Below, in pieces: positions 6,510-58,895 of a DNA stretch of 64,000 nt. Positions within the stretch are counted from its first letter, which is position 1, and each line of letters opens with the position of its first letter. Under the pieces are notes generated by a model. That model saw only the letters and a program-made list of their open reading frames with translations. It was not told the origin of the DNA and ran no database searches. The stretch lies in contig JAQWPT010000033.1 in NCBI GenBank assembly GCA_029245245.1, forward strand, positions 1 through 64,000. The letters run 5' to 3'. Position numbers and translations under genes: made by a program. Source of the DNA: Phycisphaerales bacterium (lineage in GTDB: Bacteria > Planctomycetota > Phycisphaerae > Phycisphaerales > SM1A02).

Positions 6510-7252
6510 GAACGATGCCCGCACCGTCGGATGATTCCGCCCGGACCAGCTCGCCCCGTGACGAATCCGCGGTGTCTCCGCTGATCGTGACCATCGACGG
6601 GCCGGCGGGCACCGGCAAGTCGACCGTGGCGCAGCGGGTCGCGGAACGACTCGGCCTGATGGTGCTGGACACCGGTGCGATGTACCGGGCGGCCGCGCTG
6701 CTCGCGATCCGGCTCGAAATCGATCCCTCGGACGGGCCGGCGATCGCGAAGGCGATCGAGACCCACGTGATGGAAGTCGACTTCACGGCGGATCCGCCTT
6801 CGCTTCAGCTCGACGGGGCGGACCCCGGCGAGGAACTCCGAAGCCGGGAGGTCGAGGCGATCGTCTCGATCGTCGCGGCGCAACCGGAGGTTCGACGAAG
6901 ACTCGTCGCGGTCCAGCGGGCGATCGCGGCATCGCACCCGCATCTGGTGACCGAGGGACGTGATCAGGGATCGGTGGTCTTCCCGGATGCCCAGGCGCGG
7001 TTCTATCTCACCGCATCGAGTGCGATCCGCGCGAAACGTCGCGTGGATCAACTTCGTCGGAAGGGGCAGTCTCCGGACCCCGTGGAGATCCGGGAGGGGA
7101 TCGAGGCCCGAGATCGAATCGATGCCGGGCGTTCCGACGCACCGCTGACCAGGCCGGTCGGCGCCATCGAGATCGACACCGACGAACTGGGGTTCGACGA
7201 GGTCGTGGATCGGATGATCGAGTCGATTCCCGCGCCGGGCGAGCGGGCATGA
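6506..7252 (+). CDS. cmk: Cytidylate kinase
   Basis: A 248-residue enzyme that phosphorylates CMP/dCMP to the diphosphates. Seen: P-loop GPAGTGKST after a short disordered N-terminus (about 30 residues), LDTGAMYRAAALLA, EGRDQGSVVFPDA (family consensus EGRDIGTVVFPDA), RAKRRVDQLRRKG and the RDRIDAGRSDAPL lid region. ATG 6506 overlaps the previous stop by 4 nt. ATG 6515 is an alternative start three codons on, with GGAGGGGG at 6497-6504 upstream of both. Overlaps plsC by 4 nt. Confidence 0.94.
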   Translation: MRTMPAPSDDSARTSSPRDESAVSPLIVTIDGPAGTGKSTVAQRVAERLGLMVLDTGAMYRAAALLAIRLEIDPSDGPAIAKAIETHVMEVDFTADPPSLQLDGADPGEELRSREVEAIVSIVAAQPEVRRRLVAVQRAIAASHPHLVTEGRDQGSVVFPDAQARFYLTASSAIRAKRRVDQLRRKGQSPDPVEIREGIEARDRIDAGRSDAPLTRPVGAIEIDTDELGFDEVVDRMIESIPAPGERA

Positions 7253-7983: not shown

Positions 7984-9221
7984 CCGCGGCCGGGACCGAT
8001 TTCGAGGAGGTCCGGAGCGTGGCGCTGCAAATCGCCCGATGCCTGATCGACGCGGGCCACGAGACCTATTTCGCGGGTGGATGCGTCCGTGACCGTCTGT
8101 TCGGTTTCGCGCCGACCGACATCGACATCGCGACGGCGGCGACGCCCGACGCGGTCCGCGCGATCTTTCCCAGGGCGCGGGGGGTGGGGGCGAGCTTCGG
8201 CGTGATGCTGGTGCCGAACGACGGGTGCAGCATCGAGGTCGCGACCTTCCGCTCGGACTTCGCATACGAGGATGGACGCCGGCCCGGACGGGTCCGTTAC
8301 GGCACCGCCGAAGAGGACGCGCAGCGTCGGGACTTCACGATCAACGGTCTGTTCGAAGTGCCGTCCGACGGACGGATCGTCGATCTCGTCGGCGGCCGCG
8401 CGGACATCGAGGCGCGGATCCTGCGGGCGATCGGTGATCCCGAGGACCGGTTCGAGGAGGACCGTCTGCGAATGCTTCGCGGCGTTCGCTTCGCCGCCCG
8501 CTTCGACCTCGCGATGGAGCCGGCCACCGAAGCGGCGATCTCGGCCCGGGCCGATCGACTCGGGGGCGTGAGTCGGGAGCGGGTCGGGCAGGAACTCCGG
8601 CGGATGCTCGCGGACCGGGGACGGGTTCGAGCGGCGGTGTTGGTGGAATCGACGACGCTCGATCGAACGGTGCTCGATGCCGGGCGGTCGATGGAGACTT
8701 CGGGGCATCCCCGGCTCGCCGTGATGCCCGAATCGGCGTCGTGGATCGACGCGCTCGCCGCCTGGGAGCTTGATCGAGGCACCGCCGGCGATGCCGTGGA
8801 GCGGCTCACGCCGGCCCTGGTGCTGTCGAACGAGGAGACCGCGACGCTGCGGGGGCTGTTGGAGACGCGTCGGCGACTTCTGGAAGCGTGGGACACGCTC
8901 GGCGTCGCCGCCCGCAAGCGGCTCGCGGCCACGGCCCTGTTCGCACGCTCGTGCGATCTGCTGGCGACCGAGGCGCCCGATCTCGTCGCCGGGATCCATC
9001 GGGACACCGATGTGCTCCGATCGACCGGGCTCGCGCCGGTGCCGCTGGTGACCGGTGAGGATCTGAAGGCGATCGGGCTGAAAGCCGGGCCGGTCTTCGG
9101 TCGAATCCTGACCGAGGTGTACGACGCCCAGCTGGAGGGGCGGGTGCATGGCCGGGAGGACGCGATCGCCCTTGCACGGTCGCTGGGCGAGGCCCCGGCC
9201 GACGCGGAAGGCGATGCCTGA
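7980..9221 (+). CDS. cca: CCA tRNA nucleotidyltransferase / poly(A) polymerase family
   Basis: A 413-residue class II nucleotidyltransferase. Seen: GGCVRDRLFG followed by PTDIDIATAATPD (the catalytic DxD), RRDFTINGLF, and EEDRLRMLRGVRFAARF of the neck domain, then an HD-less helical C-terminus. It most likely adds or repairs the 3' CCA of tRNAs. The one tRNA gene in this window (31103-31189) does not encode CCA, so such an enzyme is needed. Sequence alone does not separate full CCA-adding from CC- or A-adding or poly(A) activity. Starts in an ATGA overlap with plsC. Confidence 0.88.
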   Translation: MTAAGTDFEEVRSVALQIARCLIDAGHETYFAGGCVRDRLFGFAPTDIDIATAATPDAVRAIFPRARGVGASFGVMLVPNDGCSIEVATFRSDFAYEDGRRPGRVRYGTAEEDAQRRDFTINGLFEVPSDGRIVDLVGGRADIEARILRAIGDPEDRFEEDRLRMLRGVRFAARFDLAMEPATEAAISARADRLGGVSRERVGQELRRMLADRGRVRAAVLVESTTLDRTVLDAGRSMETSGHPRLAVMPESASWIDALAAWELDRGTAGDAVERLTPALVLSNEETATLRGLLETRRRLLEAWDTLGVAARKRLAATALFARSCDLLATEAPDLVAGIHRDTDVLRSTGLAPVPLVTGEDLKAIGLKAGPVFGRILTEVYDAQLEGRVHGREDAIALARSLGEAPADAEGDA

Positions 9222-30307: not shown

Positions 30308-30329
30308 GTCGTTCCCGACGCGTGTTCGG

Positions 30330-30950
30330 TCATCCGGTCCAGTTCGCGAAAAGCAGGCCGAGATCGAGTCCGTTGACCTTGAAGTCATGGTTCAGGTCGC
30401 CGATCGGGAAGCTGATCGGCTCGACCTCGATGCGCATGCTCTGGCCATAGTTGGCGCCCTGACGGTGATTCTCGGCGGCGATGCGGAAGAAGATCACCTG
30501 GCCCGCTTCCACGTTGAATTCGGCCTCCGCGCCTCCGAAGCAGCTTTCCACGTCGTCCGGTGCGTTGTTGAAGCCGCAGGCGATGAACCCGCCTTCACAT
30601 GTGTGGCGTGCCGCGACGATCCATTGCGGGCTCACGTCGCCTCCCGAGCAGACCACGGCCCGCAGATTTCCCGTGACCGGTGCGACGTACCGGACGAACA
30701 GATCCGCTTCATTCGCCCACACGCAGCCGCCTTCCCACGACGGCGATGTTCCACCGTAGTCGAGCTCGAACCACGAACTGGAGGGGGCGCTGCCGAGGAT
30801 GACGTCGCAATCGTCGCCTTGGAAGGTCGAGCCGCTCCCGGGTCCCGCATGGGAAGTGGGGCTCGACTCCAGGAAGAGTGCCGCGGACGCCGTGAGCGCG
30901 GCGATGGTGGCGATCGTGGGTGCGATTCGGTCGTGGTATCTGCGAGACAT
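30330..30950 (-). CDS. Secreted protein with dockerin-like C-terminus
   Basis: A 206-residue protein with a signal peptide (about residues 1-36, ending SHAGPG). The middle is a beta-rich domain resembling the bacterial pre-peptidase/PPC type (SWFELDYGG, ADLFVRYVAPVTGNLRAVVC, GQVIFFRIAAENH), with three or four Cys. The tail GDLNHDFKVNGLDLGLLFAN carries one Ca-binding loop and matches the style of the 28781 gene's tail. Convergent with that gene. Function unknown. Confidence 0.72.
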   Translation of the reverse strand: MSRRYHDRIAPTIATIAALTASAALFLESSPTSHAGPGSGSTFQGDDCDVILGSAPSSSWFELDYGGTSPSWEGGCVWANEADLFVRYVAPVTGNLRAVVCSGGDVSPQWIVAARHTCEGGFIACGFNNAPDDVESCFGGAEAEFNVEAGQVIFFRIAAENHRQGANYGQSMRIEVEPISFPIGDLNHDFKVNGLDLGLLFANWTG

Positions 30951-31102
30951 GGCGATTCCTCCACTGGGATTTCGGGTCGGTCGCTCCAGAGCGTCTGGAA
31001 GACCTGATTGCGGAAACAGGTAGGGGCCTGATTCACCGTTGTGACGAGGAAATCCCGGATCGCTCGCGAAGCCGATCGGAGGTCGTTAGAATCCCACGCT
31101 CT

Positions 31103-31189
31103 GGAGAGGTGGCAGAGCGGTTGAATGCGCCGGTCTCGAAAACCGGTATGGCCTCCGGGTCATCGTGGGTTCGAATCCCACCCTCTCCG
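31103..31189 (+). tRNA. tRNA-Ser (CGA)
   Basis: An 87-nt class II tRNA. The acceptor stem GGAGAGG (31103-31109) pairs with CCTCTCC (31182-31188), with discriminator G31189. The D-arm contains GCAGAGCGGTTGAATGC, the anticodon loop CTCGAAA gives anticodon CGA, a long variable arm follows, and the T-arm has GTTCGAATC. No CCA is encoded. It reads UCG serine codons. Confidence 0.95.
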
Positions 31190-31196
31190 CTTGCAG

Positions 31197-31234
31197 ACGA
31201 CCGCCGGCACGATCTCGTGCCGGCGGTCGTTTTT
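31197..31234 (+). terminator. Intrinsic terminator of tRNA-Ser
   Basis: A perfect 16-bp stem (31197-31212 with 31215-31230), 2-nt apparent loop, followed by T-rich sequence. It ends the tRNA transcript. On the other strand it lies just past the end of the Bat operon and may serve both. Confidence 0.85.
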
Positions 31235-31266
31235 CATCCACCAGTTCCAAGGAACGCCGGAGACGC

Positions 31267-32121
31267 TCAGACGGCGTCGCCGGTGTCGTCCGCGATCCAT
31301 CCGACGGTGCCGTCCGGGAGTCGGATCCGCCACCATCCCGGACGTCGTTCGAGGATGGAGAATTCGACGCCCTCGGAGAGCGTCTCGTCGGCGGCGGGGG
31401 AGAACGTCGCGCCGTTGCCGGTTCGGAGGACCACCTCGTCGTTCAGGAGCACCCCTGCGGAACGACGGGCCGCGAGCGTTCGATCCACAACGAGCGTTCC
31501 GGTGGTGAGGACCGCGGTGATCCCGAGGATCACGATGACGGACCGCCACGCGAGGGTCGTCGCTTCCCCTTCGCCGGGTCGTGGGCCGCGGCCCCTTGCT
31601 CGACGCACCAGCAGGATCAACCAGAATCCACACCAGGTCGACAGGGCGATCAGGTGGCGAGTCGGCGCGTCGAGGACCTTCCACCATCCCGCGAGATTGG
31701 AGACGGTGAGATCGGTGGCGTCGGCTTCGATCGGTCGTTCGACGCGGCGCCGAGCCTCTGCGAGATTCGCGGCGACGTCGTCGTCGAAGGGCGCGAGTCG
31801 TTCGGATCGGCGGTACGCGATGATCGCTTCGCCCAGTCGTTCCGCCCGGAGTTCGGCGTTGCCGAGGTTGTACCAGGCGGCTGCGTTGTCGCCACCCGCC
31901 TCGATCACGACTCGCCAGCCGTCGGCGCTTCGTTGGAAGTCGCCCAGGGCGTCGGTCGAGCCCGCCACCTGGCCGAGTCCCGATTCGTAGTCCGATTCCG
32001 CATTCCGGGCGAGCTCGAGCAGATCGGCGTTCCCGAAGGCCGAAGGGGTTTCGATCGCTCCGAGCAGCATGAGGCCGGCGATGAGGATCACGCGGATGGA
32101 GTTTGCTGGGGACGTCCTCAT
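31267..32121 (-). CDS. batE: BatE-like TPR and SH3 domain protein, last gene of the Bat operon
   Basis: A 284-residue protein. Signal peptide or anchor (residues 10-30), two or three TPR helices pairs (NAAAWYNLGNAELRAERLGEAIIAYRRSERLAP in pieces, about 85-118), two membrane helices (about 160-172 and 193-212), and a C-terminal bacterial SH3 domain (about 220-284, GWWRIRLPDGTVGWI). TPR plus membrane helices plus SH3 is the BatE layout. It probably scaffolds the Bat complex at the membrane. The start overlaps the batD stop (ATGA). Confidence 0.8.
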   Translation of the reverse strand: MRTSPANSIRVILIAGLMLLGAIETPSAFGNADLLELARNAESDYESGLGQVAGSTDALGDFQRSADGWRVVIEAGGDNAAAWYNLGNAELRAERLGEAIIAYRRSERLAPFDDDVAANLAEARRRVERPIEADATDLTVSNLAGWWKVLDAPTRHLIALSTWCGFWLILLVRRARGRGPRPGEGEATTLAWRSVIVILGITAVLTTGTLVVDRTLAARRSAGVLLNDEVVLRTGNGATFSPAADETLSEGVEFSILERRPGWWRIRLPDGTVGWIADDTGDAV

Positions 32122-33989
32122 CGGTCGCGCCTCCGTCCCGGCCGGAGCGTGTCGAGGGTGGGGATGAGCGCCGTCGCCCGTCGTTCCAGTTCGGCGTCGT
32201 CGCCGGAAGCACCCGCATATCGGGCGGTCTCCGCGGCGTCGAGCACGCTTCGCAGTTCCTCGCGATCCGATCGATCGAGCCCCGCCCGTTCGACGGCGGC
32301 TTCGGCCTCGCGTGCCGTCATCGCACCGTCGGGGAGATGAAGTCGATTCGCGATGAGACCGCAGAGCGACGCATGGACCCGATCCGCCGCCGAGCCTTCG
32401 CCGCCGAGGATCGACTTCGCCTTCGATCGTGCGGCCGCGGCGCGTCCCGCGTCCGGATTCGCCAGTCGATGCTCCCGCCGACGGACCAGCAGCAGCCCGA
32501 GGAGGTACGTCGCCGGGCCTGCGATCGCGATCGCCGTCGTCGTCCAGCCGGGTTCGAAGACGCGTCGGGGAGTCGCGGCGTCGGCGACCGGATGATTCGC
32601 CCGCAGGCCGCCCGTGGTGGCGGTCAGCGTCGTGCCCCGCAGGATGGCCTGATCGAGGCCGTCTTCGCCACGCACCGTGCTCGCGAGATCCAGCCGTTCG
32701 CTCGGGGCCACGTTGATCGGAACCGGCTCGCTGCTCGCGGTCACGTATCGCCCGAGTTCCGGATCGAAGCTCACGAACGGAATCGAGGGGATCGCGTCGA
32801 GGTCGTCGCGCTCCGGTCGAAGTGTTTCGGTGAAGGTCTTGGTCCGTCCCTCGACGATGCCCGTGGTCGGATCGTCCGGGACCCGGAATCCGTCCAAGGC
32901 CTCGAGGTCGCGGAGCGGCGGGGGTCGGAGGTTCGCGAGATCACCTGCGATCCCGGGCGACTCGTCGGTGACCTCGAGCCGGAGCGTGATGGGATCACCC
33001 ACCGAGACGTCTCGAGGCTCGGCAAGGGCCCGAACCGAGAATCGCCCCACGGCACCCGTGAAACTCGACGGCCGCCCCTCCTCCGGAAGGGACCGAACCT
33101 CGATCGGCCGGATTTCGGCGGTCTGGACCACCGGGCGGATTCCTTCGATCTCCACCTGACGTCGATTGAAGATGTCCCGGGTGACGGCGATGCCGGTCGG
33201 TTGTCGAAGCACGACCTGGACTTCACCCGGATCGATCGCCCCGGCCTTGATCGGTACGACGTCGTGCTTGATCTCGTAGAGAAAATACGTTCGGTCCCCG
33301 CGTTCGACCGAGCGTCCGGAAGGCCGCCGCCGATTCCTCGCGAGCTCCTCGAGCGACTCCTTGAAGATCCCCCAGGAGGACTCGCCCGCCGAGATGAGCC
33401 CCCACATGTCGGCCTCGTCCAGGCGTATTCGATTCGCTCGATCGACGAACTGTTCGACCCAGATCTGCAGGGTCAGTCGTACCGGCTGGCCGACCCAGGC
33501 CTTCACGGGGGTGCCGATGATCTCGACGACGAGAAGATCACCCACCTCGCTCTTCGTCGCGATGACCCGCCACGGATCGCTCTCGAACCGTTCGCCGTCG
33601 ACCGTCAGGTCGATGGGCGGAATCTCGATGATTCCAGGTCGTGTCGCCACGAATCGGACCACGTAAGTCCGGGTGGAGCGGGTCGTCGCCACGCCGTTGA
33701 TGATCTGGGTGAAGGTGCTTTCGCGGGCGCTCGGAAGCACCGTGCTCGTGAGGCCCTCGATCTCGGGTACCCGCGGTTCGGTCCACGCTTCGGCGTTCAC
33801 GATGTCGATTTCAAGAAGGAATGGTTGGCCGACCCAGACCTCGCGCTGGCCGAACTTGAACTCCGCCAGCCCGTCGGCGAAGACGCTCGTGTTCAGGCAT
33901 CCGAGGCAGGCGAAGAGGACCGCCAGAAGGCGCGGCATCACGCGAACGACCCGTTTGGTGGATTCAGGGGAGACGGCGGCTTGCATCAC
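32118..33989 (-). CDS. batD: BatD-like protein
   Basis: A 623-residue protein. Signal region (about 17-38), then repeated beta-sandwich domains in which VWVGQPFLLEIDIVN, AWVGQPVRLTLQIWV and VSVGDPITLRLEVTD mark three units. A membrane helix follows (about 478-500) and then a cytoplasmic helical tail (about 505-623). This is the BatD (oxygen tolerance) plan. The ATG at 33989 overlaps the batC stop by 4 nt, which supports that start; ATG 33938 would begin nearer the signal peptide. Probably interacts with the VWA proteins BatA and BatB in the periplasm. Confidence 0.85.
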   Translation of the reverse strand: MMQAAVSPESTKRVVRVMPRLLAVLFACLGCLNTSVFADGLAEFKFGQREVWVGQPFLLEIDIVNAEAWTEPRVPEIEGLTSTVLPSARESTFTQIINGVATTRSTRTYVVRFVATRPGIIEIPPIDLTVDGERFESDPWRVIATKSEVGDLLVVEIIGTPVKAWVGQPVRLTLQIWVEQFVDRANRIRLDEADMWGLISAGESSWGIFKESLEELARNRRRPSGRSVERGDRTYFLYEIKHDVVPIKAGAIDPGEVQVVLRQPTGIAVTRDIFNRRQVEIEGIRPVVQTAEIRPIEVRSLPEEGRPSSFTGAVGRFSVRALAEPRDVSVGDPITLRLEVTDESPGIAGDLANLRPPPLRDLEALDGFRVPDDPTTGIVEGRTKTFTETLRPERDDLDAIPSIPFVSFDPELGRYVTASSEPVPINVAPSERLDLASTVRGEDGLDQAILRGTTLTATTGGLRANHPVADAATPRRVFEPGWTTTAIAIAGPATYLLGLLLVRRREHRLANPDAGRAAAARSKAKSILGGEGSAADRVHASLCGLIANRLHLPDGAMTAREAEAAVERAGLDRSDREELRSVLDAAETARYAGASGDDAELERRATALIPTLDTLRPGRRRDR

Positions 33990-34999
33990 CAGTCGCGCTC
34001 CACGGGCTTCTTCGGACGACGTTCCTCGGCCTCGGCCTTTTCGCGGCGACGCTGGCGTTCCTTGTCCCGGACCGATTGCAGGAGTCGTTCGGCCTCTTCC
34101 CTGGTCATCCGCGGCTCGGAGGCCTCGGCATCATCCGATGCCTTCGATGAAGACGACGTCGCCTCGGCATCGTCTTCCTGTTCGGAATCCTTCTGCTGGT
34201 CCTGCTCCTCCTGGTCCTCCTGCTCCTGGTCTTCTTGCTGCTGGTCCTGCTGCTGCTGATCCTGCTGCTGCTGATCCTGCTGCTGCTGATCCTGCTGCTG
34301 CTGATCCTGCTGCTGCTGGTCCTGCTGCTGCTGGTCCTGTTGCTGCTGGTCCTGTTGCTGCTGGTCCTGCTGCTGCTGGTCCTGTTGTTGCTGGTCCTGC
34401 TGCTGTTGCTGTTGTTGCTGGTCCTGCTGCTGTTGCTGTTGCTGTTCAAGTTGCTCCTGCATCTGCTGAAGTTGCTTGATCAGGTCCCAGGTCATTTCTG
34501 CATTGGCGCGGGCATCTCCATCATCAACCTGGGATTCAATGGCGGTACGGTAGTGATTCAACGCGGAATCAAGTTCCGCCTGTGCGGTCTCCAACTGGTC
34601 GATTGCCTGCTGGGCACCGGTTTCATTTCCAGCCTGCAGGGATTCAACGACTTGTCGGTGGGTCACATTGCCGAGGTTGTAGACCGAATCCGACAACAGA
34701 CTCTGGTCGTCGGTCAACGCAATGGCCTCTGTGAAATCTGATGCGGCCGCGGGCCAGTTCCCAAGCCGGTAGTTGGCAACGGCTCGGTTGTACGCCAGTT
34801 CGGCCATGGGGATCTCGAGTTGGGCCTGGGCAGCGTCGATGGCAGTGATCGCATCTTCGAAGCGTCCCTGGTCAATCGCAAGTGCACTGTCCTGGACGAG
34901 TGATCGGTACGAACCGGTTGCCGAAGGAGCGACAGCGGGTGGGGCTGCAACGAGTGATGATGTGACAACCAGCAGGCTGGCGGAAATCAGGTTGATCAT
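33986..34999 (-). CDS. batC: BatC-like TPR protein with QQQQD repeat
   Basis: A 337-residue protein. Signal peptide (about 1-23), then TPR helices (about 38-170, AELAYNRAVANYRLGNWPAAASDFTEA), then a Gln/Asp region (about 184-275) containing ten perfect QQQQD units, an acidic Ser/Glu stretch, and a basic C-terminus. TPR with a long low-complexity tail is seen in other BatC proteins. DNA for the N-terminal half is clearly lower in GC than DNA for the C-terminal part, with the change at the repeat; see the findings. Overlaps both neighbours by 4 nt. Confidence 0.8.
   Translation of the reverse strand: MINLISASLLVVTSSLVAAPPAVAPSATGSYRSLVQDSALAIDQGRFEDAITAIDAAQAQLEIPMAELAYNRAVANYRLGNWPAAASDFTEAIALTDDQSLLSDSVYNLGNVTHRQVVESLQAGNETGAQQAIDQLETAQAELDSALNHYRTAIESQVDDGDARANAEMTWDLIKQLQQMQEQLEQQQQQQQDQQQQQQQQDQQQQDQQQQDQQQQDQQQQDQQQQDQQQQDQQQQDQQQQDQQQQDQQQQDQQQEDQEQEDQEEQDQQKDSEQEDDAEATSSSSKASDDAEASEPRMTREEAERLLQSVRDKERQRRREKAEAEERRPKKPVERDW
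34244..34393. repeat. 15-bp minisatellite, ten units, in batC
   Basis: Ten in-phase 15-bp units (plus strand pattern GTC/ATC then four CTG or TTG codons) encode QQQQD on the minus strand. They sit in a wider CTG-rich tract of about 34187-34447. Left units vary by ATC/GTC and right units by CTG/TTG. Such arrays change length by slippage and are prone to misassembly. Confidence 0.92.
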
Positions 35000-36048
35000 G
35001 GCAGGGCAACCTCCATGTGTTTCGGCCTTGTGCGTCGATCAGTCAGGAATCCGTCGATCAACAGCAGGAGCAGGGCCAGGGCTGCGAACCACTGGTAGCG
35101 AGGTACATGCTGCTCGATCCGGGCCGTTTCATGAGTCCGGCCGCTGCCGAGGGCGATGACATCGCCGTAGATTCCCGCCATGTCGACGTTCCCGGTGCCT
35201 GCGGGAATGTAGGCGCCTTCGGCGGCCATCGCGATGTCCTGCAGCAGATCGGAATTGAGTTTCGACCACACTTCCTCGCCATCGTGCGTCAGGTACAGTC
35301 GCTGCCCGTCGATCTCAACGGGAATTCTGCCGCCTTCATGCACGTCCCCGAGCCCGACGGTGAACACGGAGATGCCCCGATTCGCCGCCTGAGACGCGGC
35401 TTCAACCGGGTAGCTGCCCATGTCATCTCCGTCACTGAAGATGACGATGGCCTTGAAATCCTCGACTTCGTCGGTGAACGAATCCATGGCGAGTCGAATC
35501 GCATCGCCGGTCATCGATCCGCCACGCCTGCCCTGCCTGGCCTGGAGTTCGTCGAGAGCCAGTCGCATTGCACCGTAGTCGAGGGTCAGCGGAACCGTGA
35601 CGGAAGCCTGCCCGCCGTAGGTGATCAGGCCGACGCGGTCGCCACCGATGGTTTCGAGCACATCCTCGATGTACTGCTTGGCCCGCTGCATCCGGTTGGG
35701 CTTGACGTCCTCGGCCAGCATCGATCGGGAAGTGTCGACCACGAAATACACGTCGATGCCCTTCTGCTGTACTTCCTGGTAGCGGATGCCCCAGCGGGGA
35801 TCGAGCAGGCTGAAGACCATCAGGACCATCGCAACGAGGACGAGAATGGACCGGATCCTGCGACGTGGCATGCTCGTGTTTGCGGTGAGTTTCTCCGCCA
35901 TGGGTGGAGAGGCGAGGCGACGCAGTGCGAACTTCCGCGTCTTGTAGGAAAGCACGACGACCACCGCAACTGCAAGCACGGCCCACAGCCAGTTCATTGA
36001 TTCAAGATGGTTGAAGCGAATGTCCATGAATCGTGTTCCAGGTGTCAA
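34996..36048 (-). CDS. batB: BatB-like VWA domain protein
   Basis: A 350-residue protein with two N-terminal membrane helices (about 19-38 and 66-84). A VWA domain (about 97-270) carries the MIDAS sequence VVDTSRSM, SMTGDAI and IFSDGDDMG. A C-terminal helix (about 322-338) follows. ATG 36048 overlaps the batA stop (ATGA). The metal site looks intact, so ligand binding through a divalent cation is likely. Partner of BatA. Confidence 0.88.
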   Translation of the reverse strand: MTPGTRFMDIRFNHLESMNWLWAVLAVAVVVVLSYKTRKFALRRLASPPMAEKLTANTSMPRRRIRSILVLVAMVLMVFSLLDPRWGIRYQEVQQKGIDVYFVVDTSRSMLAEDVKPNRMQRAKQYIEDVLETIGGDRVGLITYGGQASVTVPLTLDYGAMRLALDELQARQGRRGGSMTGDAIRLAMDSFTDEVEDFKAIVIFSDGDDMGSYPVEAASQAANRGISVFTVGLGDVHEGGRIPVEIDGQRLYLTHDGEEVWSKLNSDLLQDIAMAAEGAYIPAGTGNVDMAGIYGDVIALGSGRTHETARIEQHVPRYQWFAALALLLLLIDGFLTDRRTRPKHMEVALP

Positions 36049-37136
36049 GGAAGTCGTCGGTACCTCGTTCCCGCGAGCAGGACTTCCAGCAGCAGTGCGA
36101 TCAAGGGGATCACCAGCAGCGGGGGAAAGGTGAAGCCGCCGAAGCGGACGGAGTCGACGGACATGTCCGCATACTGCTCGTACTGCCGTTCAATGATTTC
36201 CGTCGTCTCCAGTTCGTTGATGCGCTGGTAGATGGATTGCAGGGATTCGGTGTCGGTGGCACGGAAGTACTGACCGTCGGTCATCACCGCGATTTCCCGG
36301 AGCGTTTCCTCGTCGAGAGTGGTTTCCATCCGCTGTACGACCTGCTGGCCGCGGGCATTCTGTCCGAGCACGGGAACGATGCCGGTGGTGCCTGCGCCGA
36401 TCGTGTAGATCTTGATATTGAAGGCCGCGGCCATCTCGGCGGCCTTCATGGCCGTGATGTCGCCCGCGGTTTCTTCGCCGTCGGTCAGCAGGATGATGAT
36501 GCGGCTCTTGATGTCGTCATCACTGCGGATGTCGGCACGGTCCTGGAGCGAGGTGAGGCGTGACACGGCCAGGGCGAGGCCGTCGCCAATGGCGGTCAAT
36601 GCGCCTTCCTGCTCGTATGCCACTCGGACCTGCTTGAGCGCTTCGATCAGGTGACGGTGATCAAAGGTCATTGGGCTGTTGCTGTCGGGGTAGGACGCGA
36701 AGGTGACAAGGCCGACGAGGTCGTTCTCCCGACCCGGCATCTCGTCGACGCCGAGAATGAAGTCCGCCACCACGGCCTTGACTGCCTCCAGGCGGGTCAC
36801 GTTCTGGCCGTTGCGCACGAAGTCCAGTGCCTGCATGCTGCCGGAGCGGTCGACCACCATCTCGATGGCGACGGCATCCGCGTGGACGCGCGTCTGCTGA
36901 TCGGCACGAAGAGGTCGGGCAAGGCAGACGATCAGCGACACGACAGCGATGGTGCGCAGGGCAGGAATGATCCAGCGGGTCCGCACGACCCAGCTTCGAG
37001 GAACCCTTGCGAGCAGCGATGTGGTGGAGCAGGGCACCGTGGCCCGTCGTCGGGCGATGGACCACCGCCACCAGAGTACGGGTACGAGGACGCCCAGCAG
37101 CAGGAACCAGATGGAAGGTTGCTCGAAGAGAAACAT
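36045..37136 (-). CDS. batA: BatA-like VWA domain protein
   Basis: A 363-residue protein with N-terminal helices (about 7-27 and 55-75), a VWA domain (about 90-300) with an intact MIDAS (VVDRSGSM, then ILLTDGEETAG), and a C-terminal helix (about 337-355). Two membrane segments before a VWA domain and one after is the BatA plan. The start and the upstream gene's stop share one base (37136), so translation is coupled. Confidence 0.88.
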   Translation of the reverse strand: MFLFEQPSIWFLLLGVLVPVLWWRWSIARRRATVPCSTTSLLARVPRSWVVRTRWIIPALRTIAVVSLIVCLARPLRADQQTRVHADAVAIEMVVDRSGSMQALDFVRNGQNVTRLEAVKAVVADFILGVDEMPGRENDLVGLVTFASYPDSNSPMTFDHRHLIEALKQVRVAYEQEGALTAIGDGLALAVSRLTSLQDRADIRSDDDIKSRIIILLTDGEETAGDITAMKAAEMAAAFNIKIYTIGAGTTGIVPVLGQNARGQQVVQRMETTLDEETLREIAVMTDGQYFRATDTESLQSIYQRINELETTEIIERQYEQYADMSVDSVRFGGFTFPPLLVIPLIALLLEVLLAGTRYRRLP

Positions 37137-38164
37137 CAGGCGGTCTCCCCCTGCGCAGTGTCTGGTCGCGGTTGCGTATCCACCACGAAGCAGCGAGCCA
37201 TGTGCAGTGCCTCTTCGCCTTCGGACACGTGGGGTTCATGGAGGGCGAACTTCACCAGGTCCGCGATGCGGAGAAAGCCGCGGAGCTGGTCCTGCTGCGG
37301 CGTGTGCAGGGTGTCGCTGCCTCGCATGTCCTGAAGGAACTCCGGGGTGGTCCGAGTCGGGGCCACCAGGCCGAAGCGACCCTCGATGTAGTGCCGGAGG
37401 ATGTCGGTCAGTCTGAAGTAGTAGGGCTGGAAGCATCGACGCTGCAGGAGTCCTTCAGCTTCCAGGGCATCGAGCTGCTCCTGGGCGAGGATGTGCGGCG
37501 GCAGTGGTGGTGCTGTTGGAACTGGCCCACGTTTGATCAGGTAGACGACCAGCGAGCCGACGAGAGCGACGACGAGCCCTCCGAGGATGATCCAGAGTCC
37601 CCAGTTCAGCAGGGGGACCTGGACGGGCCCCCGGATGTCACGCAGGGTGCTGGCTTGGGAGGCTTCGCCCAGTGCAGTGTTGATCACGATGCCAAGCGGT
37701 TCGGTCGTGACGGAGCCGGTGATCTCCACGTCTCCACGCCGGTCGGTGAAGCGGGCGGTGATGGCGGGGATGTCGTGGGTGCCTGCTTCGAAGGTGTCAA
37801 GGACAAGTCGTTGCGACCAGATTCGATGATCCTGATCCGGATAGTCGGGTCGGACCTGGTCCTCCAGCACGTGGAACGTGCCCAGCATGGACGTGTCCTC
37901 CACGTCGATCAGGGGCATCGTGATGACCACGTCGGCTTCGGTGACAGCGCGGATCTCGAGCACGAGTGGGCTGCCCACGTCGAGCGTTCCCGCATCGGCC
38001 ACCACGGTCAGTTCGACCGGGCCCTTGCTGGCGCTCTGTTGCACGGGCGAGTCCCCGGTGACCTCGGTGGCCCGGGTGCAGGCGGCCGGCGGAGCGGTGA
38101 CCAGCAGCAGCAGGAGCAGGCGCCCGAGCATGACATGGCTGAAGATGCGTCGCATTCGGCTCAT
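37136..38164 (-). CDS. Bat operon protein, BatD-like single-pass membrane protein
   Basis: A 342-residue protein. N-terminal signal sequence (about 8-30, ending PPAAC, a poor lipobox with Pro at -3), an extracytoplasmic beta-sandwich domain (about 45-180), one membrane helix (about 190-213), and a cytoplasmic helical domain of about 125 residues (FRLTDILRHYIEGRFGLVAPT). It looks like a short BatD or the DUF4381-type protein often found between DUF58 and VWA genes. 4-nt overlap with the DUF58 gene. Confidence 0.7.
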   Translation of the reverse strand: MSRMRRIFSHVMLGRLLLLLLVTAPPAACTRATEVTGDSPVQQSASKGPVELTVVADAGTLDVGSPLVLEIRAVTEADVVITMPLIDVEDTSMLGTFHVLEDQVRPDYPDQDHRIWSQRLVLDTFEAGTHDIPAITARFTDRRGDVEITGSVTTEPLGIVINTALGEASQASTLRDIRGPVQVPLLNWGLWIILGGLVVALVGSLVVYLIKRGPVPTAPPLPPHILAQEQLDALEAEGLLQRRCFQPYYFRLTDILRHYIEGRFGLVAPTRTTPEFLQDMRGSDTLHTPQQDQLRGFLRIADLVKFALHEPHVSEGEEALHMARCFVVDTQPRPDTAQGETA

Positions 38165-39042
38165 CGTTGGATCCTCGCTTCACGTCGCTTGAAGAAGCGG
38201 CTCAGGGATTCAACGAATGGTTCACCGGTGTGCAGGGCAAGTCGATCAATCCGGTAGCGATTCATCCAGGTGTTCAAGTCCGCCTCCTGCTGCTCGGCCA
38301 TGCGGCGGTAGGCGGTGCGTGTGGCGGAGGAGTTCGTGTCCAGCAGCACGATCTCACCGGTTTCGTTGTCCTGAACCTCGATGAGGCCGACGCGAGGAAG
38401 GTCGTCCTCGAACCGGTCGCGCACATCCACCGCGATCAGGTCGTGCTTGCGGCGGGCGATCTGCATCGCCGACTCAAACCCGGTGTCCTGGAAGTCGCTG
38501 ATGAGAAAGGCGGTGCACTTGCGTTTCTGGATCCGATTGAGGTATTCCAGTGCCACGGACAGATCAGTACCCCGGCCCTCGGGCTGGAGGGCGAGCAGTT
38601 CCCGGATGACGCGAAGAACGTGTCGTGGTCCCTTCCGGGGGGGGACGAAGAGTTCGACCCGGTCCGTGAAACAGATCAGCCCGACCTTGTCGTTGTTTCG
38701 GATGGCGGACAGGGCCAGCGTGGCACCGATCTCGGCCACGAGTTCCCGCTTCTGCTGCTCGTTGGTGCCGAACGACTGGGAGCCACTGAGGTCCACCAGG
38801 AGCATGACCGTCAGTTCCCGTTCCTCACGGAAGACCTTCACGTAGGGTTCGCCGGCGCGGGCGCTGACGTTCCAGTCAATGGTGCGGACATCGTCGCCGA
38901 CCTGGTATTGGCGGACTTCCTCGAACTCCATGCCACGGCCCTTGAAGGCGGAGTGGTACTGGCCTGCCAGCACGTCGTTGACGGTGCGGGAAGTGCGGAG
39001 CTCGATTCGTCGAATTTTCTTGAGCAGCTCGGTGGGGATCAT
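38161..39042 (-). CDS. DUF58 domain protein of the MoxR/Bat operon
   Basis: A 293-residue cytoplasmic protein. Diagnostic DUF58 block GRGMEFEEVRQYQVGDDVR followed by IDWNVSARAGEPYVKVF, then a VWA-like fold with LLVDLSGSQSFG (MIDAS-type DxSxS) and FLISDFQD. DUF58 proteins accompany MoxR ATPases in nearly all Bat-type operons and are thought to be part of the MoxR-dependent chaperone system. It lies 57 nt after moxR. Confidence 0.93.
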   Translation of the reverse strand: MIPTELLKKIRRIELRTSRTVNDVLAGQYHSAFKGRGMEFEEVRQYQVGDDVRTIDWNVSARAGEPYVKVFREERELTVMLLVDLSGSQSFGTNEQQKRELVAEIGATLALSAIRNNDKVGLICFTDRVELFVPPRKGPRHVLRVIRELLALQPEGRGTDLSVALEYLNRIQKRKCTAFLISDFQDTGFESAMQIARRKHDLIAVDVRDRFEDDLPRVGLIEVQDNETGEIVLLDTNSSATRTAYRRMAEQQEADLNTWMNRYRIDRLALHTGEPFVESLSRFFKRREARIQR

Positions 39043-39099
39043 CCCGGTGTCCTTCGAGCGGAAACGGTTCAGTGGAAAGAGAGCAGTACGATCGGCCGG

Positions 39100-40122
39100 T
39101 CAGGGAACACTGACCTGCTGGAGGATCGTCTCGATGATGTCCTCGGAGGTCTTTTCCTCCGCCTCGGCTTCGTACGTCGTGGCAATGCGGTGCCGCAGCA
39201 CGTCCGGTGCGAGGTCCTTGACATCCTGGGGAACGACGTAGCCACGACCATCGAGGAAGGCATTTGCCTTCGCGCAGAGCGAGAGAGCCAGGGTGGCACG
39301 GGGGGAGGCCCCGAACTCCACCAGGTTCGCCAGATCGGCGCCGTAGCGTTCCGGTTCCCTCGTGGCGTAGACCAGGTCGACGATGTACCCGGCGATCTTC
39401 TCGTCCATGTAGATGGAGTCGACGATCCGGCGTGCATCCAGGATGTCCTGGGGCGTCATGACCGGCTGGACTCGTGGTACCTGCTGGGTGGACGACATCC
39501 GATTCAGGATGAGCAGTTCCTCATCCCGGGAGGGGTAGGAGACGACCACCTTCATGATGAAGCGGTCGACCTGGGCCTCGGGCAGGGGATACGTGCCTTC
39601 CTGCTCCACCGGGTTCTGGGTTGCCAGAACGAGGAACGGAGAAGGAAGTGGGTGGGTTTCCTTTCCGATGGTGACCTGGCGTTCCTGCATGGCTTCCAGC
39701 AGGGCGCTCTGCACCTTGGCCGGTGCACGGTTGATCTCATCGGCAAGAATGACATTGGAGAAGATCGGACCGGTGTTGACCACGAACTCCCCGTCGTCGG
39801 GGCGATAGATCAGCGTGCCGATGATGTCGGCCGGAAGGAGATCGGGCGTGAACTGGATTCGCTGGAACGGGGCGTCGATCCCGTCTGCGAGTGTGGAAAT
39901 CGCCAGTGTCTTGGCAAGTCCCGGTACGCCTTCGATCAGCAGGTGCCCGTTTGCCAGCAGCCCGATGAGCATGCGATGCAGCAACTGGTCCTGGCCGACG
40001 ATGACTTCGTGGGTTTTCCGCTCCAGGAGGCGGAACGGTTCGCTGGCCGCCTGGACCTGGTCGGTTACCTGTTTGATATCGAGTTGACTGGTGGTCATCT
40101 CTGGTTCCTCATGCTGTGCCAT
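39100..40122 (-). CDS. MoxR-family AAA+ ATPase
   Basis: A 340-residue ATPase from ATG 40122, chosen because GAGGAAG lies a short distance upstream. Walker A is GVPGLAKT (the MoxR form), Walker B VILADEINRAP, sensor LVLATQNPVEQEGTYPLPE, arginine finger region EAQVDRFIMKV, and a helical lid domain to the C-terminus. MoxR proteins are chaperones that act on VWA partners; here batA, batB and DUF58 follow in the same operon. First gene of the operon, divergent from mtfA (191 nt between). Confidence 0.95.
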   Translation of the reverse strand: MAQHEEPEMTTSQLDIKQVTDQVQAASEPFRLLERKTHEVIVGQDQLLHRMLIGLLANGHLLIEGVPGLAKTLAISTLADGIDAPFQRIQFTPDLLPADIIGTLIYRPDDGEFVVNTGPIFSNVILADEINRAPAKVQSALLEAMQERQVTIGKETHPLPSPFLVLATQNPVEQEGTYPLPEAQVDRFIMKVVVSYPSRDEELLILNRMSSTQQVPRVQPVMTPQDILDARRIVDSIYMDEKIAGYIVDLVYATREPERYGADLANLVEFGASPRATLALSLCAKANAFLDGRGYVVPQDVKDLAPDVLRHRIATTYEAEAEEKTSEDIIETILQQVSVP

Positions 40123-40313
40123 GGTGTGCTTCCTCGGGAGCAGACGATTGGGACCCCCGGGTGTCATGCGTACGGCACGTGCGTGGAGGTGGTTCGTTCC
40201 AAAATCATGATAACCGCATTCCTGACCCTTTCAGAGCGGTTCCGATTCGGAGTTTGGCCGTGGGGCAGGCCGAAGTACCTGTCTCATGGCCCATTGGATA
40301 CCCTCCTGCATCC

Positions 40314-51115: not shown

Positions 51116-52411
51116 TCAGTGCTCGTTGACTCGCCCGTGGGAGTTGAGCGAGAAATGGAGTACCGATGGCGTGTTCCAGGATTTCATTCGCAGGCGTTGA
51201 TCACCAATTCGCGATTCCCACTGGTTGATGGGTACGGGAAACGATGATGATGCAAGTCGGCTCCAGCCCCAGATCGCGTAGCAGTCGTAGGCGGCTCTTC
51301 CATTGTCCGGAGCGAAGGCATAGGCCAGGGGTACGCGCCGATTGAGATCGGACATCGTTCCGAACTCGGGCCAGTTGTTGAGCACGTTCCAGTGGCTGAC
51401 ACCCTTGCGGCGAAGTTCGTCCGGATCGAATGGGATCCAGCCAGCCTCGGGCAGGAACAGTTCCGCCCAGACCAGCAAGTTCTTCTTGCCCCGTCGATCC
51501 TCGCCACGGCCGATCACCGCCCGGGCGGGTATGCCTGCGGCGCGAAGCAGGGCTACGCAGACACAGACCAGGTCGTTGGGGGTTCCAGTTCCTCGCTCGG
51601 CGGCGGCAAGCGCTCCGTACACTTCGAGCCCACGGATGGAACGACCGGGGCCGTAGAGCGTGGTGTCCCCTTGCTTCTGGATGCTGTTGCATGCGTATCG
51701 CACCAGTTCCTTGGCGGCGATCCACGGTGGTACGAGACGAAGATCGCCTCCGGAGACTTCAAGAACCGCATTTGCGAACACGGCACTATCGGATTCGATC
51801 AATGCCTGGGGCTGCAGTTCATCCTTGACGGCACTGGGCCAGGAGGCTGGCCATGGAATCTGCTGCAGGGCCTGGTCGTCCACGGTGCTGGAGTAACAGA
51901 TGGCCTCGTGAAAGGTGCGAAATCGAAGTTGGGTGGCGAGGTTCATGATCTTGGGGTTGAAGGTAATGCCGGTCGTCGGCCCCTCGATCAGCCGCTCGTT
52001 GAAGAGGCCTTCGCCCGAGAGCAGTTCGGGGCCGCTGCCTCCGTCAAGACGCTGGCCATGCAGTTGCACTTCGGCCTCAATCGTGTCCAGGTTCACGTAG
52101 CTGGAGGCGCTCTGGGGAATCAGCGGCATCAGCAGGGGGCGAGTGGGATCCTGAACCGCAAGGGAGTGGATCCCCACGTTGAAGGTCAGGTCGTAGCGGC
52201 GTGGTTTGTCCCAGGTGATGTACGGGTTGGACTTCGGGGGAGCCGGGGTGGCAATGCTGATGGCCGTGGGCGGAGCGGTACCTGGTACCGCCGTGGGGGC
52301 GGCTGGAGCCGGCGGCGTCGCGGGCGGCGTCGCGGGCGGCGTGGTGGGAGGCTGCTGGCCGAGCATCGACATGGTCAGCAGCACGACGGCGAAGGAAGAG
52401 AGAGAAACCAT
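51116..52411 (-). CDS. Secreted transglutaminase-fold protein, catalytic residues replaced
   Basis: A 431-residue protein with a signal peptide (1-18) and a Pro/Ala/Thr-rich linker (about 20-60). The last half carries a transglutaminase-like domain: LVCVCVALLRAAGIPARAVIG and NLLVWAELFLPEAGWIPFDP fit the family. The usual Cys position, 12 residues before the conserved Arg290, is Pro278. The His of HAWxE is Leu313; Asp329 is kept. So it is probably not a peptidase or transglutaminase. MlaE is encoded 9 nt upstream on the same strand, so the two may be co-transcribed. Confidence 0.72.
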   Translation of the reverse strand: MVSLSSFAVVLLTMSMLGQQPPTTPPATPPATPPAPAAPTAVPGTAPPTAISIATPAPPKSNPYITWDKPRRYDLTFNVGIHSLAVQDPTRPLLMPLIPQSASSYVNLDTIEAEVQLHGQRLDGGSGPELLSGEGLFNERLIEGPTTGITFNPKIMNLATQLRFRTFHEAICYSSTVDDQALQQIPWPASWPSAVKDELQPQALIESDSAVFANAVLEVSGGDLRLVPPWIAAKELVRYACNSIQKQGDTTLYGPGRSIRGLEVYGALAAAERGTGTPNDLVCVCVALLRAAGIPARAVIGRGEDRRGKKNLLVWAELFLPEAGWIPFDPDELRRKGVSHWNVLNNWPEFGTMSDLNRRVPLAYAFAPDNGRAAYDCYAIWGWSRLASSSFPVPINQWESRIGDQRLRMKSWNTPSVLHFSLNSHGRVNEH

Positions 52412-56250: not shown

Positions 56251-56295
56251 GTCTCCCTTGACATGTGCCGCCCCCTTGGGGTCATGAGACGCATT

Positions 56296-56319
56296 CCGCC
56301 CTTCCGGGGCGGTTTTTTT
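56296..56319 (+). terminator. Intrinsic terminator after the Minf_1886 gene
   Basis: Hairpin CCGCCC (56296-56301), loop ttcc, GGGGCGG, then seven T. Confidence 0.85.
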
Positions 56320-56387
56320 CTTGCCCCAACCGTGAAATCCTGTTCAGATGGATTGAACTCTTGATGCGCCCTGAGGGAGGGAAAGCC

Positions 56388-58895
56388 ATGAATATTCGTC
56401 TCATCGTTACGTCCATCGTGCTGAGCATGCTCTGCCAGTTCTCGGCATCGGCCCAGGTCATCGACTGCGTCTGTTCTTCTGCGTACTCGGTCGGTGATCG
56501 AGTCCAGTTGACGCAGGATATGGACGACAGTTCCGGTCTCCTGGCAGGAGCGGTGGGGACCGTGCTCTGTGGTTCCGCGTCGGGAAACCTCTACGTCAGT
56601 TGGGATGCATGGGCGGGTGGTCACAACAGCAATGGCTCTTGTGCATGCGAGAGTGGTGATGATGACCCGGACAACAGCCACTGGTACGTCAGTTGCTCGA
56701 AGGTCGTCGCCTATATGCCGATCGACTGCGCCTGTGCTTCGCAGTATTCGGTCGGTGATCGAGTCGAGTTGGCGGAGGATCTGAACGACGAATCCGGACT
56801 CATGGCAGGCTCGCTTGGGACCGTCGTGTGCGCAAGGCCGACCGACCGAGTTCTGGTCGACTGGGATGACTTGGGTACAGGTCACGATGGAAACGGCATT
56901 TGCGTCTGTGGTGCAGAGGGTGGTTCAGGTTTCAGCAACTGGTTTGTGAATTGCGACATGATCGGGCCCTCCAGTGTTATCGAGTGTGCCTGTGATTCGG
57001 AGTACTCGGTGGGTGACCGCGTCACGCTCCTCGTCGACAATCCGGACGGCGCAACCAATCTTCCTGCAGGGTCAGCTGGTACGGTCCTGTGTGGCGATGC
57101 TGGCTCTTACGACCTCTACGTCAGTTGGGACAGTTGGTCAGATGGACATAACGAAACCGCGTACTGTGACTGTCAAAGCGGTGCAGGCGACCTGGACAGC
57201 AGCCATTGGCTCGTCTTGTGTGGGGATGTCCGACGTGGCGAGCCCGGAACCATCGAGGTGCCCGGCGACTACGCGACGATCCAAGGGGCCATCGATGTGT
57301 CCATCGATGGTGAGACGATTCAGGTTGCCGCGGGGACATACTACGAGTACGCCATCGATACCTCCGGGCGCGCCGTGACGATTTCCGGTGCCGTCGATGC
57401 CGACGGTGAGCCGACCACGATCGTGGATGCCGATTCAATGGGGAGAGGGTTCTACTTCTACACGGGAGAAACTTCCGCCACGGTTCTGCAGAACCTTGTC
57501 ATCAGGGATGGGATCGCTGCCACCGACGGGGCGGGGGTCTACATCTCCAACGCCCACCCGCGTTTCAGCAACTGCCATTTTGAGAATAACGATGCTGCAG
57601 GCAGCGGGGGAGGGGTGTACATGACAAATTCTGCGACTCGGTTTACAAACTGCACATTCCACTCCAACACTGCAGCAAACGGCGGCGGCGTGTACGTGTA
57701 CAGCTCCTACAACGCACTTTTCGATGGATGTCAATTTGACTTCAACGAGGCGGTGTACAGCGGGGGTGGATTCTACGCAATGACGAGTACCTATTTTCAG
57801 CTCTGGGATTCCACGTTCACCGGCAACAGTGCAGGTGAAGGGGGCGGTGGAATGGCCGTGTATGATCCGAGTTATTCGGCCGTCATCCACGACACCGAAT
57901 TCATCTACAACGTCGCGTCCTACGGGGCCGGCCTCTATGGCTACTATGTGTACTTCAATATGGAAGGCAACGTGTTTCGCGACAACGTCGCAGCAGCAGA
58001 CGGCGGTGTCGGCGGCGGTGCCTACCTCAGCGAATGCGCAGGGTCGATCCGTTCATCGCAACTCGTCGGCAACAGTGCCTCGAGCGGCGCAGGAATGTAC
58101 GTCTATGGCGACTGGGGCACGAGTGTGACCGAAACGTCCTTCGAGGGCAATGTCGCGGAAGTCCACGGAGGTGGGTTGGTGACGTTCGTCACCTACGACC
58201 CGTTGTCTCTGTCCGAGTGCACCTTCATGGGCAACCAGGCCGAGCTTGGTGGTGGCATGTACTCGTACTGGTCCGACTCGGGACTCTCCAGCTGCACCTT
58301 CAACGGGAACCTCGCGACTGTGGATGGAGGAGGACTCTACGGGTATGCAGGCACTTCGACACTCACGAACTGCACGTTCCGCGGAAACTCGGCGATCGCC
58401 TCCGACTTCTCCGTGTGCCGTGGTGGAGGGATCTTCAACTTCCAGGGCCAGGAATCGACGATGGTCGGCTGCACCATCGAGGACAATACGTCCGGTTCCG
58501 GTGGAGGCATCTACAACGAAGGGTCTGACCCGGTGCTTGAAGACTGCACCGTCTCATCCAATGTCGGCAAGGTCTGTGGTGGCGGCATGTTCTCCGAAGA
58601 CGGCGTGGCCTGGATGACCGGGACCACCTTCTGCGCCAACCAGCCCGACAACATCATCGGTGCCTGGGTCGATCAGGGAGACAACGACCTGTCCGCCACC
58701 TGCGAACTGCCACCGGGCCTGTGCGTCGGCGATGTGAATGCCGACTACGACGTGGACGTGCTGGACCTGCTCTACGTGATCGCGGTCTGGAATACCGACA
58801 ACCCCGCCGGCGACATCAACGAGGACGGCTGGGTGGACGTGATGGACCTCCTGGAGGTCATCGGCAACTGGGGTGAGTGCGGCGACGCAGATTGA
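56388..58895 (+). CDS. Secreted beta-helix protein with three N-terminal repeats and dockerin-like tail
   Basis: An 835-residue protein. ATG 56388 has GAGGGAGGG upstream and starts the signal peptide (1-22). Three repeats of about 80 residues (about 24-105, 107-188, 193-279) each begin with an xDCxC/ECAC cluster and YSVGDRV, and contain GTVLC and HWYV-type ends; they look SH3-like. A right-handed parallel beta-helix follows (about 285-760, with many GGGxY and NCTF turns), then two Ca-binding loops (GDVNADYDVDVLDLLYVI and GDINEDGWVDVMDLLEVI). Probably displayed or released; binding to a polysaccharide is plausible but not shown. Confidence 0.8.
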   Translation: MNIRLIVTSIVLSMLCQFSASAQVIDCVCSSAYSVGDRVQLTQDMDDSSGLLAGAVGTVLCGSASGNLYVSWDAWAGGHNSNGSCACESGDDDPDNSHWYVSCSKVVAYMPIDCACASQYSVGDRVELAEDLNDESGLMAGSLGTVVCARPTDRVLVDWDDLGTGHDGNGICVCGAEGGSGFSNWFVNCDMIGPSSVIECACDSEYSVGDRVTLLVDNPDGATNLPAGSAGTVLCGDAGSYDLYVSWDSWSDGHNETAYCDCQSGAGDLDSSHWLVLCGDVRRGEPGTIEVPGDYATIQGAIDVSIDGETIQVAAGTYYEYAIDTSGRAVTISGAVDADGEPTTIVDADSMGRGFYFYTGETSATVLQNLVIRDGIAATDGAGVYISNAHPRFSNCHFENNDAAGSGGGVYMTNSATRFTNCTFHSNTAANGGGVYVYSSYNALFDGCQFDFNEAVYSGGGFYAMTSTYFQLWDSTFTGNSAGEGGGGMAVYDPSYSAVIHDTEFIYNVASYGAGLYGYYVYFNMEGNVFRDNVAAADGGVGGGAYLSECAGSIRSSQLVGNSASSGAGMYVYGDWGTSVTETSFEGNVAEVHGGGLVTFVTYDPLSLSECTFMGNQAELGGGMYSYWSDSGLSSCTFNGNLATVDGGGLYGYAGTSTLTNCTFRGNSAIASDFSVCRGGGIFNFQGQESTMVGCTIEDNTSGSGGGIYNEGSDPVLEDCTVSSNVGKVCGGGMFSEDGVAWMTGTTFCANQPDNIIGAWVDQGDNDLSATCELPPGLCVGDVNADYDVDVLDLLYVIAVWNTDNPAGDINEDGWVDVMDLLEVIGNWGECGDAD

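Follow-up and report, generated by a model that had tools for sequence, protein, structure and literature searches.

A change of genus inside the batC minisatellite of a Phycisphaerales contig most probably marks an inter-genus assembly chimera

The question raised by this locus is whether a batC gene that reads in frame through a CTG-rich minisatellite belongs to a single genome. The window, by which we mean the whole 64,000-nt stretch analysed, comprises bases 1-64,000 of contig C30 (363,956 bp) of the source MAG G000 (family f1, genus g1), an assembly of 2.69 Mb in 38 contigs that is estimated to be 96.48% complete and 2.61% contaminated. It was compared with the g1 congeners G001 and G002 and with genomes of g33, a different genus of the same family, including G161, G162, G163 and G164. 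As judged from the sequence comparisons, the contig is almost certainly an inter-genus assembly chimera, joined in the batC array. The window was divided as follows:

1-34,190, no strand: segment assigned to a g33 genome and presumably foreign to the MAG (blastn blocks, GC 0.669, tetranucleotides)
34,188-34,455, minus strand: CTG-rich minisatellite in batC, mostly of DQQQQ units; probable join site
34,456-64,000, no strand: sequence assigned to the host (MAG, genus g1; blastn block to G002:C1, collinear with G001:C7 and G006:C66)

The preliminary description had placed a compositional break near the minisatellite and had proposed, as checks, a GC and tetranucleotide profile of the window and a comparison of best-match taxonomy on both sides. 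Its A/T counts in 60-nt lines were exact: 19 and 20 in the lines at 33061 and 34021, and 28, 28 and 25 in those at 34501, 34681 and 34861. Five lines alone are weak evidence; A/T per line averaged 19.9 on the left (sd 3.2, n = 569) and 22.8 on the right (sd 3.7, n = 491), where 24% of lines have 20 or fewer. The break was nevertheless borne out window-wide. The GC content was 0.669 in 1-34,190, 0.596 in 34,191-34,460 and 0.620 in 34,461-64,000. A single change point in GC raised the log-likelihood by 84, whereas none of 500 permutations of the 1-kb blocks gained more than 38, and chance was rejected as the source of the step. The best GC change point was 33,150, ~1 kb left of the array. The tetranucleotide scan, with a host and a g33 model, switched at 34,191, the left edge of the array (34,166 with the array masked).

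Pieces of 4 kb were also compared by tetranucleotides with the pooled profile of 19 other G000 contigs and with a g33 contig stretch non-homologous to the left side of the window. All eight pieces from the left part (within 1-32000) were nearer to g33 than to the MAG's other contigs by tetranucleotides, the seven right pieces were host-like, and the piece spanning the join was intermediate. The next 20 kb of C30 past the window were also host-like (5/5 pieces). The 19 other G000 contigs, with up to 20 kb sampled from each, had GC of 0.59-0.64, and each of their 76 4-kb pieces was nearer to the MAG mean, which was built partly from them. By composition, therefore, the host lies on the right and the odd sequence on the left, with a composition that fits another source and flips where the lineage does. 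A change of codon style within the gene had also been claimed. The GC3 ranges of the left ORFs (0.79-0.92 in 14 of 15, and 0.73 in one) and the right ORFs (0.70-0.87 in 14 of 15) overlap; the TPR part of batC has a GC3 of 0.46.

The genes around the join carry the names MoxR, DUF58, BatA, BatB, BatC (a TPR protein) and BatD, those of the bat operon. PF07726, PF01882, PF07584 with VWA, VWA, TPR and PF13584 follow each other in a row, so that gene order and Pfam families are as in the bat operon; here, however, the row is assembled from two genomes, the batC tail and batD coming from another genus than the remainder:

32,118-33,989, minus strand: batD, g33-type (92% to G163; 33% and 31% to the congeners)
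33,986-34,177, minus strand: C-terminal tail of batC, g33-type (86% over 58 residues to g33, 55% over 40 to g1)
34,450-34,999, minus strand: TPR domain of batC, g1-type (68% over 154 residues to g1, 35% over 133 to g33)
34,996-36,048, minus strand: batB (VWA), g1-type (BatB 83% to G002, 78% to G001)
36,045-40,167, minus strand: batA (VWA), a gene without Pfam match, DUF58 and MoxR, all g1-type by sequence comparison

Thirty-four gene pieces were compared with stretches of g33 and g1 genomes, and 24 of them matched one set alone because only stretches of each genome were compared. All 17 left pieces scored best in g33, with 79-97% identity, and all 17 right pieces scored best in g1, 16 of them at 68-91% and one (56,265-58,895) at 38%. 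The pieces that matched both sets, four on the left and six on the right, agreed with their side in 10 of 10 cases.

The window BatD matched three g33 genomes at 92%, 90% and 89% and four others of that genus at 67-68%, but G002 and G001 at 33% and 31%. In a search of 181 family genomes, including G000, 10 genomes other than G000 passed E 1e-150 (seven in g33, three in g54). No near donor species for the left part was found among these 181 genomes, the best BatD being at 92%, and this lack of a near match counts against a chimera. Trees were built from selected sequences, 20 in the BatD tree and 15 in the BatB tree, the latter without G166. The window BatD fell inside g33, in a clade with G162, G163 and G164 (100/100), and the window BatB grouped with G001 and G002 (98/97). 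The lineage therefore flips along the contig, in the gene pieces and in both trees, as in an inter-taxon chimera.

The blastn alignments gave the same division. Window 700-34383 formed one 33.8-kb block to the g33 contig G162:C150 at 88.0%, and window 4282-30316 and 31037-34246 matched G163:C56 at 89.3% and 85.2%. Window 34389-55468 formed one block to the g1 contig G002:C1 at 75%, up to the last base of that contig. G162:C150 itself runs on beyond its own array into a g33-type batB, and the right side of the window matched 40 kb of G162:C150 in two pieces only, at 66% and 70%.

The minisatellite has a core at 34,193-34,432 with a period of 15 and 16.2 copies, and overlapping rows span 34,188-34,455. 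Array positions 34,260-34,339 match the end of the g33 contig G164:C56 exactly over 80 bp, and 34,305-34,369 match the end of the g33 contig G161:C69 exactly over 65 bp. The alignments to g1 begin at 34,389 (G002) and 34,359 (G001), and the longest exact run common to the array and any g1 contig end is 29 bp. Given g33 runs of 80 and 65 bp against at most 29 bp for g1, the switch probably falls in the right-hand portion of the array, at about 34,340-34,390. No exact run of at least 20 with 34,101-34,520 occurs at the ends of G162, G163 or G002:C44. With these results and the 29-bp limit for g1, the joining k-mer itself was not seen, which counts against a chimera.

The repeat unit varies among the Q/D/E-rich batC arrays of the relatives, being DQQQQ in the window, G164 and G161, ESDQQQ in G162 and DSEQQQ in G163. 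The BatC linker array is a fast-changing coding minisatellite whose unit differs by genome (34188-34455 here; L090, L092, L094, L115, L117, L119 and L121). The C-terminal motif of BatC stays recognisable despite the change of array, as LLQxxRDKExxRR or alike with DW at the end. We also observed a perfect 12-base tandem repeat of 2.7 copies at 52311-52342.

The preliminary description had named the CTG-rich array as a place where an assembler might join two genomes, and the relatives agree with this role. Among 34 relatives in which both BatB and BatD were found, eight have batB and batD on separate contigs; 1.6 would be expected if contig ends were evenly spread, for a gap of 1,300 bases and with contig counts rounded. 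From this set G000, G033 (matches 1.5 Mb apart) and G029 (no full BatB) were left out, and G025 was counted as unsplit, though its batD is broken over two contigs. The array stood at a contig end in six of the eight split relatives, on both sides in five of them. Among g33 genomes, contigs of G161, G163 and G164 end in the array, and those of G162, G166 and G167 cross from batD to batB. The contig ends of the remaining two split relatives, G034 and G008, showed no array. The G034 contigs C34 and C5 (L091, L090) share an overlap of exactly 55 bp within batC, ahead of the array, and this split resembles an unresolved 55-mer more than a break at the array. With both genes on one contig in 26 of the 34, the array does not stop every assembly. 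The join of the window nevertheless lies in a repeat that assemblies often fail to cross.

The left part also brings surplus copies of single-copy genes:

6,587-7,228, plus strand: cmk (cytidylate kinase, PF02224) domain, g33-type second copy (91.5% to G163)
8,064-8,426, plus strand: CCA-adding/polyA polymerase head domain (PF01743), g33-type second copy (87.5% to G163)

G000 has g1-type copies of both elsewhere, cmk at C10:141345-141980 (74-77% to congeners) and PF01743 at C13:19918-20280 (71-82% to congeners over the 120-residue head domain). One cmk was found in each of eight relatives searched, against two in G000; PF01743 was present once in seven of the eight (none was found in G034) and twice in G000. 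A search of G000 for the 9.1-kb congener flank G002:C44, in which 40 of 130 candidates were scored, gave no match longer than 121 bases, while the same search gave kilobase matches in G001 and G006 (G001:C31, G006:C66). BatD has one match in G000. It is as if the true g1 batD flank had been lost in assembly or binning. A search of G000 with the g33 flank beyond the array (12,000 of the 12,776 bases of G162:C150:40001-52776) found no near copy among the 40 of 155 candidates that were scored; of the six matches, one covered 32 bases at 91% and the others stood at 67-73%. The missing g1 flank fits replacement as well as artefact, and the redundancy fits an artefact better.

Composition, per-gene ancestry, collinearity with two genera, the split batC, the redundancy and the recurrent contig ends together point to a chimeric join, in line with the preliminary description. 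Members of g1 (the MAG) and g33 were probably present in the same metagenome, from a presumably shared sample, and both have a bat operon with a CTG-rich batC array coding DQQQQ-like units. The short-read graph paths of both genomes would have entered the array and could not have been resolved there, so that the assembler probably took the wrong exit at a putative common k-mer. This step would have joined the g1 side (batC TPR domain, batB, batA, DUF58 and MoxR) to the g33 side, with the batC tail, batD and the genes that follow. Both halves come from the same operon and keep one reading frame, so the joined sequence passes for a single intact gene.

It is possible, though rather unlikely, that within this chimeric reading the two contigs were joined by a scaffolder or by gap filling across the array and not in the assembly graph. 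Contigs of several relatives end at the array, which favours such a route, but the window contains no N; the practical meaning would be unchanged.

A real recombination event, in which g33 DNA of 34 kb or more entered a g1 cell, recombined through the batC minisatellite and replaced the cell's own batC tail, batD and downstream genes, is very improbable. The in-frame hybrid batC and the correct operon order count against a chimera to the extent that recombination would also give them, and the absence of the MAG's own batD flank from the G000 search is what replacement predicts. However, the 34 kb carry no sign of drift towards the host composition, replacement alone would not account for the additional g33-type copies of cmk and the CCA gene, contigs of relatives frequently stop at the site of the junction, and no mobile-element family was found among 18 left-side ORFs scanned with Pfam. 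If real, the join would represent inter-genus replacement through a repeat. The further proposal that the rapidly changing minisatellite acts as a recombination port, exchanging bat-operon flanks between genera with a functional hybrid BatC, is slightly more doubtful still. A mobile island was judged unlikely from the same Pfam scan of 18 left ORFs and the single junction seen; contig base 1 is the window start, so the left end of the segment coincides with the contig end and a second junction could lie beyond it. Ordinary variation of composition within one chromosome, without foreign DNA, has a next to negligible probability and was rejected, for although right-side GC also varies (0.56-0.66 per kb) and four of the 76 host pieces reach 0.655, none of the 76 is nearer to g33 by tetranucleotides and the gene-piece ancestry, which flips at one point, refutes it.

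The join is thus very probably an ordinary artefact, and the hybrid batC should not be read as biology. The GUNC paper (PMC8201837) treats chimeric contigs produced by misassembly as a known fault of MAGs, held to be rarer than misbinning. As in the cases it describes, fragments of two sources stand in one contig; here, in contrast, both sources belong to one family and the join is in frame within one gene. In the terms used there, the left part combines redundant contamination (cmk, CCA gene) with replacement (batD flank). With default GUNC settings, one study reports potential chimerism in about 11% of marine MAGs (PMC11247762) and likewise concerns cross-taxon sequence in MAGs passing a CheckM limit; the example worked through there is an entire contig binned across domains, whereas our join lies within a contig and below the family level. 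The share of genomes that GUNC flagged in one GTDB release is given as 11.25% in PMC11261887. Left uncut, the contig would credit a hybrid BatC and 34 kb of genes to the wrong genus. For cleaning of the MAG, the contig should be cut at 34,188-34,455 and bases 1-34,190 taken out. In family f1, short-read assembly is likely to be vulnerable at the batC array, and batC-spanning contigs of other MAGs deserve a check.

Dockerin tails of different type had also been noted on the two sides. Both motifs exist, NGLDLGLLFANW at 30,374 on the minus strand and VMDLLEVIGNW at 58,839 on the plus strand, but they lie ~4 kb and ~24 kb from the break and prove little alone; the difference adds little to the case for a chimera and was left out of the evidence. 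The ORF with the first tail (30330-30950, minus strand) sits inside the G163 alignment gap at 30,316-31,037, so G163 may lack it. The second motif belongs to a beta-helix protein (56265-58895, plus strand) with a C-terminal dockerin and two dockerin-like motifs, at 58,764 and 58,839; its best match among the compared g1 stretches reached only 38% over 363 residues.
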